A stretch of 23,220 nt of DNA. Origin: an uncultured Peptostreptococcaceae bacterium. GTDB taxonomy: Bacteria > Bacillota > Clostridia > Peptostreptococcales > Anaerovoracaceae. The notes beneath the pieces were generated by a model. That model was not told where the DNA came from and made no database searches. It worked only from the letters and a program-made list of their open reading frames with translations. The position numbers were made by a program, and so were the translations under genes. Each line of letters opens with the position of its first letter. The first letter of the stretch is position 1. Location of the stretch: NCBI GenBank assembly GCA_905236895.1, contig CAJOQI010000131.1, forward strand, positions 1 through 23,220, in the 5' to 3' direction. This document shows, piece by piece, positions 9,339 through 15,275 of the stretch.

Positions 9339-9376
9339 AAAAAAGGGCGATTACAAATCGTAATCGCCCCTTTTTT
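9339..9376. terminator. bidirectional intrinsic terminator
   Basis: GGGCGATTAC (9345-9354) and GTAATCGCCC (9360-9369) form a perfect 10-bp stem around AAATC. Six A bases lie on the left flank and six T bases on the right, so each strand has its own T-run. On the minus strand it lies 20 bases past the stop of the large flavoprotein gene and ends that operon. On the plus strand it would stop any read-through from recN. Confidence 0.92.
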
Positions 9377-9396: not shown

Positions 9397-12300
9397 TTAT
9401 TGCTTCGGCTTTGGAATTCTCTCAGCATTGAGATTCATCAAAGCATCGCTCCAAGGCAGTTCATCAGCCATCTTAGCCTTCTTGGCCGGTACCAGATTAA
9501 TCTCTGCAGGCTTAAGAACTCCGCCCAGAACCTCGCCTACCTCAGCGTATTTATAGAGAGGAAGTGCATCGTCCATTTCATAGCTGATGTCGATTTCATC
9601 TTCGAACCAGAATTCCTCTTCAAATACGTGGGCCAATTCAGCTGCAATCTCCCAGTTGGAGATTTCCACATCCTCATTGATTGCAGGCTCTACAGGAAGA
9701 AGTCTTCTCTCGGTATTGGTATAGGTACCGATTGTTGATGCAGATCCCGTTGCGGGGATGAATACATCTGCCTTCTCTCCTGTCTTGGTCATATAGATAT
9801 CGCTTACCATGAGGAATTCCAGATCCTTGCGGTCCTTCATTACCTTGGTTCCGATTGGGTCTTCACCGAATACCATAAGGCCCTTAACTCCATCAAGGAC
9901 TTCAGCACCGGCTCTGATTCCCATATCCACAAGACCCTGAGAATTGTTCTTGGACTTAACCTCAAGGATACCGTCTCTGGCTTCTCCGATATGTCCGGAG
10001 ATAGCTGCCATATCAGCAAGGAGTCCTGCTGCCTCTTCAGTCAGAACGTTCTGCTCGAATACGATCATGGCCTTCTTGGCATTTCCGTAAATCTCGGCGA
10101 TTTCCTTTGCTTCTGCAGTTACCTTGAATCCTGCCAGGGACTTCTTAAGTTCCTTATAGCCCTCAAGCTTCTCGCCCTTTCCGCCTTCCATCAAAGCCTT
10201 TGTTACGCCGGCAAGAAGGTCGGTGGTATTTGCTGTTTCATATACCTTGTGAGCGAATTTGAATTTGCTCTTGGCTTCATTGGTATTAATTACAACTACC
10301 TTTGCTCCGTTTTCTGCAGCCTGCTTAATCTTATTCCAGATTACCGCAGCTCTGTTCTTGATGAATCCGGGAACCAGGATAACTTCTGCGGAAAGAAGCT
10401 CGTCTATGGTATTGGGAGAACCGTCGAATCCGAATACATCCAGGATTGCGTTATGACGGTTATTGAAGCTGAAGACCTTTGCTCCAACCACTCCTGCCAT
10501 CTTCTTGATTGCATAGGCTTCTTCATTGGTATATCTGTCGGAGATGGAAACTGCCAGAGCATCCTTTCCGTAGCGAGCTTTGATGGATTCCATCTTCTTT
10601 GCTGCCATCATGATTGCCTCATGATAGTCGGTCTCCTCAAGGCTCTTTCCGATCTTAACCATAGGATCTACGATCTTGCCTTCCAGCATGGATACGTCGA
10701 ATCCCCATTTTCCCTTGGCGCAGCAGATTCCCTTGTTTACGGGACCTTCCTTATCCGGATTGGCCTTAATCAGCATATCGCCATAGCTCTCAAGATTGAA
10801 GGTACATCCAACGGCGCAGTTGGCGCAGGTGGTTGTGGTAATATCCGTATCCAGAGGAATTTCCTTCTGTACGGACTGTCTCTCCTGAAGAGCACCTACG
10901 GGGCAAACAGCAACGCACTGTCCGCAGGATTCGCATCCGCTTTCAAGGAGTGGCTTCTCAAGACAAGGCTTAACAACAGTATCAAAGCCTCTGTGAACCA
11001 ATCCGAGAGCTCCAACTCCCATTACCTCGTCGCAGACTCTTACGCAAAGCCCGCAGAGGATACACTTGTTGGGATCTCTTACGATAAATGGATGGTTGTC
11101 CTCGAACTCAACGATATTGATATCCCCTTCAAGTCTCTGGGGCTCAACATTATAGATATTCGCATAGTCTATCAGCTTACATTCGAAGAAGTCGTGGCAT
11201 CCGCATTCCAGACATCTGGAAGCTTCAGCAACAGCCTGAACATCCGTAAGTCCGCCATATACAACCTCGCTGAAGTTGTCCTTTCTTTCCTTTGCCGTAA
11301 GCTGGTCAGCCTTTTCTCTGCAGAGTCTTTCTCTGTCTTCAAAGGTTTCGGGAGTAACATCCTTTCTCTCAACCCTGAATGGCTCCTCTACGGAATAGGC
11401 TTCGCCGTTAAGATATGCATCGATGGATTCAGCGCACTTCTTGGCATCAGCTATGGATTCAACTGCGATTGAAATCTTGTCGTTACCGCAGTCACCACCT
11501 GCAAAGACTCCGGGGATATTGGTCATCATGGTTTCGGGATCGTATTTGATTCCGCCCTTTCTGGTCTTCTCCACATCAAAGCCTTCGGCGTTTACAGCCT
11601 GACCGATTGCCAAAACTACGTTATCAACGTCGATGGTCTCGGTCTTACCCTTTACGGGTACAGGACTTCTACGGCCTGAAGCATCCGGCTCACCAAGTTC
11701 CATAACCTGAAGAACGATCTGCTTAACATGACCCTTCTTGTCCTTAACGATCTTAAGAGGATTGGTAAGGTTCTTGAAGATTACTCCTTCTTCTTCGGCC
11801 TCTTCGATTTCTATCATATCTGCCGGCATTTCGTTCTTTGTACGACGATAGATATTGTAGACCTTTTCCGCACCAAGACGAACTGCTGTACGGCAAGCGT
11901 CCATGGCGGTATTACCACCACCTACGATAGCTACGTTCTTGCCCAGTTCCATGGGTTCGTTTCTAACTACTCTTCTCAGAAAGTCAATACCTCCCCAAAC
12001 TCCTTCCGCATCTTCACCGGGGCAACCAACGCCTGTTGATACCCAGGCACCGATTCCAAGAAGTACAGCATCATAGTCGGATCTGATGGTTTCCAGAGAA
12101 AGATCTTCACCGATCTTGGTATTGGGAATGATTTCAACTCCCATGGTTTCAATGATGTCGATTTCCGCATCCAGAACTTCCTTGGGAAGTCTGTATTCGG
12201 GAATACCATAGCGCATCATTCCGCCCAGTTTAGGCATTGCATCAAAGATTGTTACATCATGACCCATCTGACGGAGGAAGTATGCTGCGGAAAGACCCAT

Positions 12301-12909
12301 GGGGCCACCGCCGATAATAGCAACGGACTTGCCTGTTTCTTCCTCAATGTCGGGGATATAACTTTCATCGCTGGTGAGATCGTAGTCACCTGCGAATCTC
12401 TTGATCATTGCAATGCTGATTGGCTCATCCACCAATCCTCTGCGGCAATTGTCTTCGCAGGGATGGGGGCATACACGACCTATGGATGCAGGTAGTGGAA
12501 TCTTATCCTTGATAAGCTCGTTGGCCTTGGCAAATTCGCCGTTGGCTACCAAGCCTACATAACCCTGACAGTCGGTCTTGGCGGGGCAGCCCTTCATACA
12601 GGGTGCTACGCAGTCTCCTCTGTGGTTTGAAATGAGCAGTTCCAGATTGGTCTTTCTGGATTCGATTACTCTTTCTGTGGCTGTCTTAACAACCATGCCG
12701 GGAGCAATCTCCGTTGCACAAGCCTTTACCAGTTTGGGATTTCCTTCAACCTCTACAACGCAGATACCGCAGGCGCCATAGATTTCCGTTCTCTCATCAA
12801 AGCAGAGGGTAGGAATAAAGATATCGTTTTCCTTTGCTACCTCCAGGATGGTCTGACCGGGATAGCCGATGACTTCTTTGCCATCGATATTCATTCTAAA
12901 TCCTTTCAC
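9397..12909 (-). CDS. multidomain Fe-S flavoprotein: 2Fe-2S + GltD-like NADPH/FAD module + ferredoxin clusters + MopB-like domain (StnA-like)
   Basis: A 1170-residue soluble protein. In order: a plant-type [2Fe-2S] domain (C36, C47, C50, C64); a GltD-type N-terminal cluster region (C100, C104, C108, C114, then C147, C151, C155); an FAD Rossmann site VAIIGGGPMGLSAAY (about 196-210); a second dinucleotide site VAIVGGGNTAMDA with YRRTKNEMPA after it (about 326-363), the NADPH-type pattern of GltD; the FAD-closing GVFAGGDC; a Cys cluster near 566-577; two ferredoxin [4Fe-4S] motifs (C616-C626, C659-C669); and a molybdopterin-oxidoreductase-like domain opening with C695, C698, C702 and C729/730. 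That last domain has TNEEAYA but no Cys or Sec where formate dehydrogenases have one, so it looks NuoG-like and catalytically degenerate. The start is GTG with GGAGGG six bases upstream; an ATG five codons later also has AAAGGA before it. The gene lies 12 bp after the NuoF-like gene. Likely role (inferred): the NADPH and ferredoxin side of an electron-bifurcating transhydrogenase. Confidence 0.85.
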   Translation of the reverse strand: MKGFRMNIDGKEVIGYPGQTILEVAKENDIFIPTLCFDERTEIYGACGICVVEVEGNPKLVKACATEIAPGMVVKTATERVIESRKTNLELLISNHRGDCVAPCMKGCPAKTDCQGYVGLVANGEFAKANELIKDKIPLPASIGRVCPHPCEDNCRRGLVDEPISIAMIKRFAGDYDLTSDESYIPDIEEETGKSVAIIGGGPMGLSAAYFLRQMGHDVTIFDAMPKLGGMMRYGIPEYRLPKEVLDAEIDIIETMGVEIIPNTKIGEDLSLETIRSDYDAVLLGIGAWVSTGVGCPGEDAEGVWGGIDFLRRVVRNEPMELGKNVAIVGGGNTAMDACRTAVRLGAEKVYNIYRRTKNEMPADMIEIEEAEEEGVIFKNLTNPLKIVKDKKGHVKQIVLQVMELGEPDASGRRSPVPVKGKTETIDVDNVVLAIGQAVNAEGFDVEKTRKGGIKYDPETMMTNIPGVFAGGDCGNDKISIAVESIADAKKCAESIDAYLNGEAYSVEEPFRVERKDVTPETFEDRERLCREKADQLTAKERKDNFSEVVYGGLTDVQAVAEASRCLECGCHDFFECKLIDYANIYNVEPQRLEGDINIVEFEDNHPFIVRDPNKCILCGLCVRVCDEVMGVGALGLVHRGFDTVVKPCLEKPLLESGCESCGQCVAVCPVGALQERQSVQKEIPLDTDITTTTCANCAVGCTFNLESYGDMLIKANPDKEGPVNKGICCAKGKWGFDVSMLEGKIVDPMVKIGKSLEETDYHEAIMMAAKKMESIKARYGKDALAVSISDRYTNEEAYAIKKMAGVVGAKVFSFNNRHNAILDVFGFDGSPNTIDELLSAEVILVPGFIKNRAAVIWNKIKQAAENGAKVVVINTNEAKSKFKFAHKVYETANTTDLLAGVTKALMEGGKGEKLEGYKELKKSLAGFKVTAEAKEIAEIYGNAKKAMIVFEQNVLTEEAAGLLADMAAISGHIGEARDGILEVKSKNNSQGLVDMGIRAGAEVLDGVKGLMVFGEDPIGTKVMKDRKDLEFLMVSDIYMTKTGEKADVFIPATGSASTIGTYTNTERRLLPVEPAINEDVEISNWEIAAELAHVFEEEFWFEDEIDISYEMDDALPLYKYAEVGEVLGGVLKPAEINLVPAKKAKMADELPWSDALMNLNAERIPKPKQ

Positions 12910-12921
12910 AGTCGTCCCTCC

Positions 12922-14670
12922 TTACTCTCTTGTTATTGCATTGAAGCGGCAGTTCTCTTGGCATCTTCCGCATCTTATGCACTTCTCTTGATCGATAACG
13001 TGTTTCTTCTTAACTTCACCTTGGATGGCATCAACAGGACAGCCTCTTGAACACATGGTGCAGCCTACGCACTTATCCGTAATATCGAATTTGATAAGGG
13101 CTCTGCAGGACTTGGCTGTGCACTTGTGATTGTAGATGTGATCCTCGTATTCGTTTCTGAAGTATTTAAGAGTTGTGAGAACCGGGTTGGGAGCAGTCTG
13201 TCCAAGTCCGCACATAGCGCCGTCCTTGATCTTTCCTGCCAATTCTTCAAGGAGTTCGATATCTCCGTCCTTGCCCTTGCCCTCGGTGATTCTCTCAAGA
13301 ATCTCCAACATTCTCTTTGTACCTATACGACAGTAATTACATTTTCCACAGCTTTCCTTCTTGGTGAAGTCCAGGAAATATCTGGCCATGTCTACCATAC
13401 AGGTATCTTCGTCCATGACAATCATACCGCCGGAACCAACGATGGCGCCGGTCTTATTGATGTCTTCGTATGTTACAGGTGTGTCTATGAGCTGTGCCGG
13501 AATACATCCGCCGGAGGGGCCGCCCATCTGAACAGCCTTGAACTTCTTGTCGTTCTTGATTCCGCCGCCGATTCCGTAAATAACATCCTTAAGGGTAAGA
13601 CCCATGGGTACTTCCGCAAGGCCTCCCTTCTTAATCTTTCCGGCCAGAGCGAATACCTTGGTTCCCTTGGACTGTTCCGTTCCCATGGCACCAAAGGCTG
13701 CACCGCCGTTATTGATTATCCATGCCACATTGGCAAAGGTTTCAACATTGTTGATATTTGTTGGCTGCTGCCAATATCCCTTGGCTGCGGGGAATGGAGG
13801 TTTCAGCCTGGGCATTCCTCTTTCACCTTCCAGGGATGCGATAAGAGCTGTCTCTTCGCCGCAAACAAAGGCTCCTGCGCCGGCTTTGATTCTGATGTCA
13901 AAATCATATCCGGATCCAAAGATATTCTTTCCCAGGAATCCCTTCTCTCTTGCCTGTTCCATGGCGATTTCAAGACGCTTGATAGCCAGAGGATACTCAG
14001 CACGGCAGTAGATTACGCCTTCTGTGGCTCCCATGGCATAGCCGCCGATGGTCATACCTTCGATTACGGAATGGGGATCTCCCTCCAGGACGGATCTGTC
14101 CATGAATGCACCGGGGTCACCCTCGTCGGCGTTACAAACGATATATTTATTCTTTCCGGCATTGCCCTTGGCTGCGTTCCATTTGAACCAGGTGGGGAAT
14201 CCGGCGCCGCCACGACCTCTAAGTCCGGAGATCTTAATCTCTTCGATTACTTCTTCCGGCTTCATGGAGGTTACCCCTTTCTTGGTGGCTTCGTAGCCGC
14301 CTACGTTGATATAGTCCTCGATTATTTCGGGATTGATGAGACCGCAGTGTCTTAAAACTACTCTCTTCTGCTTGTCGATGAATTTGCTGTCTTCAGGCTG
14401 GATTGTAAGAGCTTCAACAGGCTTTCCGCCTTTGATGTGACTCTCAATGATTTCTCCAACCTTCTCAGGCTGTACATGGACGTAACGGGTCATCTTTCCG
14501 TCGTCCTCGTAAACATCAACAATGGGCTCCAGATAGCAGGTTCCCACGCATCCAGTAGTGTCGATCTCGGCTTTCAGTTTGGCTGCCTTAACCTGTTCTC
14601 TAAAGGCTGCTTCGGTTTTCTTTGCTCCGGATGCGATTCCGCAGCTTCCCTGTCCTATTACTATCTTCAT
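12922..14670 (-). CDS. NuoF/HydB-like NADH-binding flavoprotein subunit
   Basis: A 582-residue subunit that should bind NAD(H), FMN and several Fe-S clusters. An N-terminal thioredoxin-like region has GSCGIASGA and TGCVGTC (C10, C41, C45), as in HndC/HydB proteins. The NuoF core shows GLRGRGGAGFPTWFKW, CNADEGDPGAFMDR, and GAGAFVCGEETALIASLEG followed by LKPPFPA for FMN and NADH binding. A [4Fe-4S] motif ESCGKCNYCR...MCGLG follows. The C-terminus adds two ferredoxin-type clusters (C534, C537, C540, C544 and C564, C567, C570, C574). These extra clusters are typical of HydB of bifurcating hydrogenases and absent from respiratory NuoF. The start overlaps the upstream stop by four bases (ATGA) with GGGGGTG in front. 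In HydABC-type enzymes the bifurcating flavin resides in this subunit; I infer the same here. Confidence 0.93.
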   Translation of the reverse strand: MKIVIGQGSCGIASGAKKTEAAFREQVKAAKLKAEIDTTGCVGTCYLEPIVDVYEDDGKMTRYVHVQPEKVGEIIESHIKGGKPVEALTIQPEDSKFIDKQKRVVLRHCGLINPEIIEDYINVGGYEATKKGVTSMKPEEVIEEIKISGLRGRGGAGFPTWFKWNAAKGNAGKNKYIVCNADEGDPGAFMDRSVLEGDPHSVIEGMTIGGYAMGATEGVIYCRAEYPLAIKRLEIAMEQAREKGFLGKNIFGSGYDFDIRIKAGAGAFVCGEETALIASLEGERGMPRLKPPFPAAKGYWQQPTNINNVETFANVAWIINNGGAAFGAMGTEQSKGTKVFALAGKIKKGGLAEVPMGLTLKDVIYGIGGGIKNDKKFKAVQMGGPSGGCIPAQLIDTPVTYEDINKTGAIVGSGGMIVMDEDTCMVDMARYFLDFTKKESCGKCNYCRIGTKRMLEILERITEGKGKDGDIELLEELAGKIKDGAMCGLGQTAPNPVLTTLKYFRNEYEDHIYNHKCTAKSCRALIKFDITDKCVGCTMCSRGCPVDAIQGEVKKKHVIDQEKCIRCGRCQENCRFNAITRE

Positions 14671-15188
14671 TTCTTCACCCCCTTAGCATTGGCGGCAAGT
14701 TCGTCAAGAATCTTAACCGCTTTGTCCTTGGTGAGGCTTCCGTAGGTTTCGTTTCCTTCGGAGTCCTGAATCATCATAACCGGGGCCAAGGAGCAGCATC
14801 CAAGGCAGGCTACGTAATTCAAAGTAAAGAGTCCGTCCTCAGTGGTCTCTCCATCTTGGATTCCAAGATGTTCACTTACCGCTTCACCGATGGATTCGGA
14901 TCCATTTACGTGGCAGGCAGTACCCTGACACATCATAATTAAGTATTTTCCGATGGGCTGCAGGCGGAATTGAGCGTAAAAGGTTGCAACGCCATAGATC
15001 TTGGCGGGCTCTATTCCGGTTCTCTCAGAAATGTAGTTAATGGCATCCAGAGAAAGATAGCCATAGATGGATTGTGCACTCTGCAAGATAGTAATTAGGC
15101 TTCCCGGCACTTTGGCGTATTTTTCCAAAGTGGGTTCAAGTTCAGCAAAGGCTGACTTAACCTTTCCGGTGGTCTTTTTTGCGCACAT
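14667..15188 (-). CDS. NuoE/HydC-like [2Fe-2S] subunit
   Basis: A 173-residue thioredoxin-fold iron-sulfur protein, first gene of the operon. It has the N-terminal helical bundle typical of NuoE (about 10-75, including KIYGVATFYAQF) and the cluster ligands C87 and C92 (CQGTAC) and C128 and C132 (CLGCC). In NuoE/HydC proteins this cluster sits next to the FMN of the NuoF/HydB partner, which is encoded next with a 4-bp overlap. GGAGGTG lies five bases before the ATG, one of the strongest ribosome binding sites in the window. Confidence 0.95.
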   Translation of the reverse strand: MCAKKTTGKVKSAFAELEPTLEKYAKVPGSLITILQSAQSIYGYLSLDAINYISERTGIEPAKIYGVATFYAQFRLQPIGKYLIMMCQGTACHVNGSESIGEAVSEHLGIQDGETTEDGLFTLNYVACLGCCSLAPVMMIQDSEGNETYGSLTKDKAVKILDELAANAKGVKK

Positions 15189-15246: not shown

Positions 15247-15275
15247 ATTATACAAAAAAAGCCCCCCATAGGCAA
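15247..15275 (-). promoter_or_regulatory. predicted promoter of the flavoprotein operon
   Basis: On the minus strand TTGCCT (15275-15270) and a perfect TATAAT (15252-15247) are 17 bases apart. The predicted start is near 15240, giving a leader of about 50 bases. The -35 hexamer and spacer lie inside the terminator of the upstream gene, so the two signals share sequence. Confidence 0.65.

Follow-up and report, generated by a model that had tools for sequence, protein, structure and literature searches.

The window analysed here, i.e. the whole stretch of 23,220 nucleotides of contig CAJOQI010000131.1 (assembly GCA_905236895.1, an uncultured Peptostreptococcaceae bacterium), carries a three-gene operon that, judged from its sequence, very probably (roughly 93%) encodes an Stn complex, i.e. 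an electron-bifurcating transhydrogenase of the Sporomusa-type Nfn (Type 1 Nfn-Bfu) kind. The operon is an ordinary member of this known family, and the interest of the window lies mainly in the entry that it offers to the variable C-terminus of StnC. Gene order, domains, residue conservation and kinship were all observed directly; the genes, and the two parts of StnC on which the argument turns, are:

stnA, 14667-15188, minus strand: NuoE/HydC-like thioredoxin-fold [2Fe-2S] subunit, 173 amino acids (aa), ATG start
stnB, 12922-14670, minus strand: NuoF/HydB-like FMN/NAD(H) subunit with a C-terminal 2[4Fe-4S] ferredoxin-like domain, 582 aa, ATG start
stnC, 9397-12909, minus strand: [2Fe-2S], GltD (FAD, NADP(H)), NuoG-like [4Fe-4S] and apparently dead FdhF/MopB-like parts, 1170 aa, GTG start
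GltD-like module in stnC, 11398-12612, minus strand: about residues 100-504, placed by TIGR01316 and Pfam Pyr_redox_2 matches and by its motifs
MopB/FdhF-like C-terminal domain in stnC, 9400-10839, minus strand: about residues 691-1170, judged catalytically dead

The arrangement of a NuoE/HydC-like, a NuoF/HydB-like and a GltD-containing gene, as proposed in an earlier reading of the same DNA (the original prediction), was confirmed by the list of open reading frames (ORFs), in which stnA and stnB overlap by 4 nt and stnB and stnC lie 12 nt apart, and by Pfam. StnA matched 2Fe-2S_thioredx (4.9e-50), StnB matched Complex1_51K, NADH_4Fe-4S and, C-terminally, Fer4, and StnC matched Fer2_4, Fer4_20, Pyr_redox_2, Fer4_Nqo3, Molybdop_Fe4S4 and Molybdopterin. 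None of the three proteins gave a Pfam match to the H-cluster domain (PF02906), in line with the prediction that the set holds no hydrogenase domain.

For every subunit the top matches among PDB chains were 9bov and 8oh5, with E-values (1.2e-58 to 0) far beyond chance: 9bov_C (200.7 bits) and 8oh5_A (181.7 bits) for StnA, 9bov_B (901.4 bits) and 8oh5_B (887.2 bits) over residues 1-580 of StnB, and 9bov_A (1085.2 bits, residues 3-1102) and 8oh5_C (976.1 bits, residues 4-1080) for StnC. Identity to 8oh5 is 47.0% (493/1050) for StnC, 66.0% (382/579) for StnB and 58.6% (89/152) for StnA, and that of StnC to 9bov_A is 47.3%. The closest characterised homologues are thus StnABC/NfnABC, and not hydrogenases or formate dehydrogenases; chain 8oh5_C is labelled 'Formate dehydrogenase-O, major subunit', yet its entry is StnABC. 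The same holds at the level of the fold, where a predicted single-chain model of StnC ranked 9bov_A, 8oh5_C and the Thermococcus chain 9n5u_A first. Against TIGR01316 StnC reached 343.5 bits, under the cut-off of 471.75, which together with its partners StnA and StnB sets it apart from NfnAB-type subunits.

A search of genome contigs with the window's StnC returned 26 loci, 25 of which match at 67-80% identity, the 26th (L029) being a GltD-only match at 26%. Among the close ones are StnC proteins of Emergencia sp. (76%), [Eubacterium] infirmum (75%), Aminicella lysinilytica (73%) and Hornefia butyriciproducens (72%), all Anaerovoracaceae and nearer to the window in the tree than Terrisporobacter (67%). 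StnA and StnB adjoin StnC in 20 of the 25, the other five loci being cut off by a contig end within the operon or immediately ahead of it.

The site residues that were tested are in place. Of the S. ovata cysteines that fall in aligned pieces, 28/33 are kept in StnC, 23/25 in StnB and 5/6 in StnA, and in a larger alignment of StnC the window shares H96 and all 26 tested cysteine positions with 8oh5 and 9bov. Mapping onto 8oh5 showed that K170, C114, Y117 and R240 (S. ovata R239) of StnC are kept, as are E183 and D185 (S. ovata E184 and D186) of StnB; the functional roles of the tested residues of all three subunits are given in PMC10482914, where K170 is a strictly conserved ligand of cluster C7. 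StnA holds its [2Fe-2S] cysteines (ligand-type C87, C92, C128 and C132), and the acids of the FMN loop are present in StnB. The GltD module carries the FAD-type motif GGGPMG at 200 and, at 330, GGGNTA, a GxGxxA motif that is of the NADP(H) type according to an excerpt of PMC7483475. The cysteines of the C-terminal 2[4Fe-4S] domain of StnB are intact, and since the B subunits of non-bifurcating homologues are without clusters B2-B5 (PMC9304861, in excerpt), the retention of this ferredoxin-like domain supports bifurcation. The cofactors, the bifurcation and its direction in the cell are inferred from the sequence and from the solved homologues.

The established net reaction of Nfn and Stn is NADH + Fd(red) + 2 NADP+ <=> NAD+ + Fd(ox) + 2 NADPH (Fd, ferredoxin). 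By analogy, NADPH would reduce FAD (or FAD would reduce NADP+) in the GltD module of StnC, from which electrons would move singly through the iron-sulphur chain of StnC to the FMN of StnB. The StnA/StnB module would then split or join them between NAD(H) at the FMN and ferredoxin at the C-terminal 2[4Fe-4S] domain of StnB, with the [2Fe-2S] cluster of StnA presumably gating transfer to the latter. The reaction in this organism probably runs toward NADPH, driven by reduced ferredoxin and NADH.

Several points weigh against this assignment. Conserved residues do not prove bifurcation, and with P. furiosus NfnII, an Nfn paralogue, NADPH did not reduce ferredoxin and NAD+ (excerpt of PMC7483475); the preference for NADPH is read from the GxGxxA motif and from kinship. 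The final 70-90 residues of StnC do not align with 9bov_A or 8oh5_C (phmmer). Its predicted model is of moderate quality (mean predicted local distance difference test score, pLDDT, 73.7; predicted template modelling score, pTM, 0.49), with residues 518-576 and 598-686 below a pLDDT of 50, which explains the poor full-length superposition (TM of about 0.4) and makes the prediction good only for confirming fold neighbours. Finally, absences from the host genome are weak evidence, because it is 78.8% complete and in 174 contigs.

It is improbable that the complex is instead a non-bifurcating NADPH oxidoreductase of the Nso/Sfr kind, which would pass its electrons to sulphur, metals or another acceptor. 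Archaeal Nso does combine a GltD-NuoG fusion with StnA/StnB-like subunits (PMC7483475, in excerpt), but the nearest solved relatives of the window's proteins are two bacterial complexes described as bifurcating, C114 is kept where Thermococcus sibiricus NfnA has Val, and the ferredoxin domain of StnB is intact.

Even less probable is an Fdh-Bfu complex, in which the MopB-like domain would bind molybdopterin and oxidise formate, with GltD and StnAB as outlets. The Molybdopterin and Molybdop_Fe4S4 matches of StnC do lie over their Pfam cut-offs, and live-looking fusions of GltD with formate dehydrogenase (FDH) occur in the same family, one of them behind the same neighbour genes. The domain of the window, however, is apparently a dead relic of formate dehydrogenase, as in S. 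ovata. Its match to the Fdh-alpha profile TIGR01591 amounts to 195 bits in two stretches (cut-off 666), the better one covering profile positions 1-335 of 672, whereas the live-looking fusions (L054, L055 and L058, see below) score 891-908. The catalytic loop with its Cys or selenocysteine (Sec), which reads NN-x-D-x-CARL-[C/U]-H in live relatives, is missing in the window's StnC, likewise in the alignment with 8oh5_C, and PF01568 is not among the Pfam matches of StnC. MoeA was found neither in the window's genome (78.8% complete) nor in two genomes of the same genus with a completeness of 99%, and PMC10482914 calls the counterpart domain in S. ovata catalytically inactive. Formate dehydrogenase and hydrogenase functions were both rejected for the window, there being no live FDH site and no H-cluster domain. 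Just as improbable is that StnAB mainly serves another catalytic subunit encoded elsewhere (e.g. a hydrogenase), StnC being one partner among several: HydBC-like modules do combine with many BfuA types (PMC9304861, in excerpt), but adjoining genes of the operon share 4 nt or are separated by 12 nt, and the search of the (incomplete) genome brought up a single full StnB-like protein, no further full StnC-like one and none with an H-cluster domain.

With the Stn assignment preferred, the MopB-like domain, which the original prediction had taken to be added, is a normal part of StnC, namely its standard FdhF-like C-terminal part (PMC10482914). Of the two options left by that prediction, the Stn enzyme is upheld by the top full-length PDB matches and the tested site residues, and the distinct branch, in so far as it was founded on an added domain, was rejected; the 1170-residue protein, which was to be compared with StnA, corresponds to the subunit published as StnC. 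Alignment of the window's domain with that of S. ovata extends to residue 1080 of 1170 (with 9bov, to 1102). S. ovata StnC has 1172 aa, of which the catalytically inactive FdhF-like part spans 683-1172; no active complex could be purified without this part, and a Cys-to-Ala exchange at C1 or C2 blocked formation of the tetramer of heterotrimers that Stn builds through StnC; the branch with clusters C1 and C2 is called a non-functional evolutionary remnant whose exact role is not clearly understood (all PMC10482914). By analogy, the domain in the window would have no catalytic role and probably serves assembly.

The distribution of MoeA among relatives bears on whether StnC needs molybdopterin. 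Molybdopterin enzymes need MoeA, which was sought in 13 genomes and found in five. It turned up in none of the seven genomes with canonical StnC (G000, G011, G095, G043, G116, G083 and G023, the last six being 92-99% complete), was present in both genomes with a live Cys-form (G031 and G107), and was not found in the genome with a Sec-form (G085, 87% complete). Since it also occurs in 3/3 genomes with an altered or shortened StnC (G002, G025 and G073), which may hold other molybdoenzymes, its presence is not confined to the live form. Canonical StnC can evidently exist in genomes that lack MoeA, and G011 and G095, of the same genus as the window and 99% complete, have StnC but neither MoeA nor an NfnB/GltA over cut-off, which is consistent with an StnC that works without molybdopterin.

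The relatives in which the FDH domain is live, altered or missing are the following:

L054, 2866-9241, plus strand: stnA-stnB, then an StnC of 1356 aa that includes a complete formate dehydrogenase domain of the Cys type (genome G031)
L055, 296-6626, minus strand: stnA-stnB, then an StnC of 1356 aa that includes a complete formate dehydrogenase domain of the Cys type (genome G107)
L058, 5521-15288, plus strand: another Stn-like operon, in which the catalytic codon of the FDH part is an in-frame TGA (genome G085)
L056, 3632-7699, minus strand: StnC of 1355 aa with a long FDH-like domain and Asn at the catalytic place
L057, 5707-9399, minus strand: StnC variant with a long but catalytically altered FDH-like domain
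L061, 6022-9651, plus strand: StnC variant with a long but catalytically altered FDH-like domain
L065, 5976-8882, plus strand: StnC variant with the MopB domain partly deleted, stnA and stnB adjoining
L066, 4744-7734, plus strand: StnC variant with the MopB domain partly deleted, stnA and stnB adjoining
L067, 4990-7869, minus strand: StnC variant with the MopB domain partly deleted, stnA and stnB adjoining
L068, 4525-6564, plus strand: StnC of 679 aa with the MopB domain wholly absent, StnA and StnB adjoining

The C-terminal parts of the L054 and L055 proteins are complete Fdh-alpha (904 and 908 bits) with the live catalytic loop NNVDNCARLCHSSS, while their N-terminal parts keep K170, C114, R240 and all tested cysteines, and the StnB of L054 keeps its 2[4Fe-4S] C-terminus. 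As in the window, genes of the comEC and holA types (33% and 35% identity) stand before the L054 operon, whose flank gives no match to the window's eamA-like gene; the contig of L055 ends too early for its flank to be visible. At L058 a canonical StnC (broken by a run of N) is followed, 1.2 kb on, by a second stnA-stnB-stnC, whose TGA-form StnC reaches 891 bits for Fdh-alpha. A SECIS_3 match lies at 10122-10180 (34.1 bits, E 6.7e-6 for 601 bases searched, under the gathering score of 63), and selA and selB follow downstream (574 and 376 bits, both over cut-off). The lack of MoeA in G085 either counts against an active Sec enzyme or reflects a gap in the genome, and this second complex may not bifurcate, since its StnB (531 aa) is without the ferredoxin domain.

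Fdh-alpha was over cut-off in 9/119 genomes of the family, and in four of these nine it lies in a frame of at least 1300 aa (G031, G107, G085 with TGA, and G025 with the dead Asn). The score alone does not show life, because L056 reaches 721 bits despite its Asn. The shortened StnC proteins of L065-L067 (959-996 aa), together with L068, are relevant to the reported need of the MopB domain for assembly. A protein search with L054 scored 7994 candidates and found 7993; CARLCH occurs in 34 of the 120 matches listed, and two more among the matches listed stop exactly before the CARLCH site, as a selenocysteine codon would cause, the search covering the protein sequences. As a side observation, a GltD-like N-terminal part stands in one frame with an [FeFe]-hydrogenase H-cluster domain at L059 (6180-9590, minus strand) and L060 (1-3378, minus strand), with no stnA or stnB match in the stretch around either gene (L060 being a 4.3 kb contig).

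Following these comparisons, the odds seem about even that StnC-type proteins include a living formate dehydrogenase form of which the window's MopB domain is a relic, the 1356-aa forms of the sister genera being four-carrier enzymes and the FDH part having repeatedly been lost, shrunk or killed. If this is true, the complexes of the sister genera would couple formate/CO2, NADP(H), NAD(H) and ferredoxin in one bifurcating enzyme. No description of a single StnC with NADPH and live formate sites, or of a GltD-FDH fusion in an StnAB operon, was recognised in the literature searched, which consisted mostly of titles and abstract openings and included neither subscription papers nor supplements; an excerpt of PMC6895022 has nothing on GltD-FDH fusions. 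In the part of PMC9304861 at hand, Type 1 Nfn-Bfu and Type 1 Fdh-Bfu are separate kinds and no BfuA with both modules is named, and Nfn clade 53 of BfuB also includes Fdh sub-clades. Excerpts of two further papers describe Stn-like genes of Dehalobacteriia together with a formate dehydrogenase gene of unclear significance (PMC10327494) and an archaeal formate dehydrogenase whose NAD(P)-binding subunit is separate and was modelled on NfnI (PMC8965080).

Two trees that bear on how live and dead forms arose were made with a quick method and support from the Shimodaira-Hasegawa-like approximate likelihood ratio test (SH-aLRT) only; sampling was partial, covering L054, L055, L058, two truncated proteins and 24 of the 34 listed ones that bear the live Cys motif. 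In the tree of the N-terminal part, which has 67 rows and two GltD-hydrogenase fusions as its root, only live forms occupy the deepest rows, and L054, L055 and L058, themselves live, group with dead forms of Anaerovoracaceae to the exclusion of 8oh5 and 9bov. The tree of the C-terminal part (62 rows) instead unites the dead Stn domains, those of 8oh5, 9bov, the window and L061 among them, in one clade on a very long branch (1.63), apart from L054 and the like, and the program warns of long branches. Either long-branch attraction or an exchange of the C-terminal domain by recombination would account for this clade, and the two trees disagree on the evolutionary direction. The live, trimmed and domain-less relatives form a natural series for testing the origin of the domain and the need for it.

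The host genome (Anaerovoracaceae-like, 1.37 Mb, contamination 3.34%) encodes RnfC (440.6 bits, over cut-off) and pyruvate:ferredoxin oxidoreductase (PFOR; 1726.8 bits), and at its completeness of 78.8% neither glucose-6-phosphate dehydrogenase (zwf) nor an H-cluster hydrogenase was detected. The check for nfn and rnf that accompanied the original prediction thus found the latter only, no NfnB/GltA (TIGR01316) being over cut-off and the best of seven weaker matches being StnC itself. Nor did a separate catalytic partner for the operon appear, there being no H-cluster domain and no Fdh-alpha over cut-off in this incomplete genome (best 143.5 bits, in StnC itself). Among 119 genomes of the family, some of them incomplete, 42 have a near-full-length StnC (one piece from residue 5 or earlier to at least residue 1147), 48 a TIGR01316 match over cut-off (a profile that does not separate NfnB from GltA) and nine both (Fisher p = 0.0019, uncorrected for kinship). 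This agrees with the near-exclusivity of Stn and Nfn in acetogens (PMC7483475, in excerpt), and the window contributes a probable Stn-based source of NADPH within a family where the two tend to alternate. Separately, G011 and G095 have one H-cluster-domain match each (E 1.3e-64 and 4.9e-66), weaker than the numerous matches at about 1e-90 to 1e-104 elsewhere in the family; the window's genome yielded none.

Two further elements flank the operon:

terminator-like hairpin, 9345-9369, no strand assigned: stem of 10 bp flanked on either side by T runs, 27 nt 3' of stnC
candidate sigma-70-type promoter, 15247-15275, minus strand: TTGCCT-17-TATAAT (10/12), 5' of stnA

The hairpin is read as a putative terminator from its position and not from the number of such sites, which is not raised across the region (seven, versus 6.2 in shuffles); it lies between stnC and the convergent recN side and is possibly bidirectional. 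Promoter-like sites number seven where shuffles give 8.5, so that the candidate before stnA is weak by itself, and a Shine-Dalgarno-like GGAGG precedes stnA and stnC. Upstream lie what we take, on reading the ORFs, to be eamA-like, holA-like and comEC-like genes, and downstream presumably convergent recN-like and argR-like genes and, farther on, ruvC. This neighbourhood recurs: among the 25 close loci, 12 show a HolA match ahead of the operon and nine a RecN match beyond it, counts limited by the many flanks that end at contig ends; L008, L020, L022, L026 and L027 have no HolA match in the 3.7 kb before stnA. The window contains no tRNA and has a G+C of 0.41-0.50 along its whole length. The plus-strand open frames 9991-11472 (493 aa, opposite stnC) and 13126-14355 (409 aa, opposite stnB) are taken as shadow ORFs.

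Compared with known systems, StnAB is the counterpart of the HydBC/BfuBC core of the HydABC bifurcating [FeFe]-hydrogenase and of Type 1 Fdh-Bfu, whose third substrate is H2 or formate, whereas the window's StnC has no H-cluster domain or live FDH site. The two-subunit NfnAB catalyses the same net reaction with a GltD-like NADPH module like that of the window's complex, but has no HydBC-like module, bifurcates at the FAD of NfnB and was not detected in the window's incomplete genome. Thermococcus sibiricus NfnABC (9n5u, 9n5v) likewise joins a GltD-NuoG fusion to a HydBC-like module; its NfnA, with Val in place of C114 in the alignment, has 963 aa, i.e. about 200 fewer, with a partial C-terminal domain and some cluster cysteines missing (PMC9304861, in excerpt; PMC10482914). 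Closer still is Caldicellulosiruptor saccharolyticus NfnABC (9bov, 9bp5), the top PDB match for all subunits, with an StnC equivalent of 1178 aa. Sporomusa ovata StnABC (8oh5, 8oh9) differs from the window's complex in its host, which in the window is Anaerovoracaceae-like, and in the few cysteines of the aligned pieces that the window has lost (5/33 in StnC, 2/25 in StnB and 1/6 in StnA), but has three subunits in the same roles with the same domain order, and an StnC of nearly equal length (1172 versus 1170 aa) that likewise ends in an inactive FdhF-like domain.

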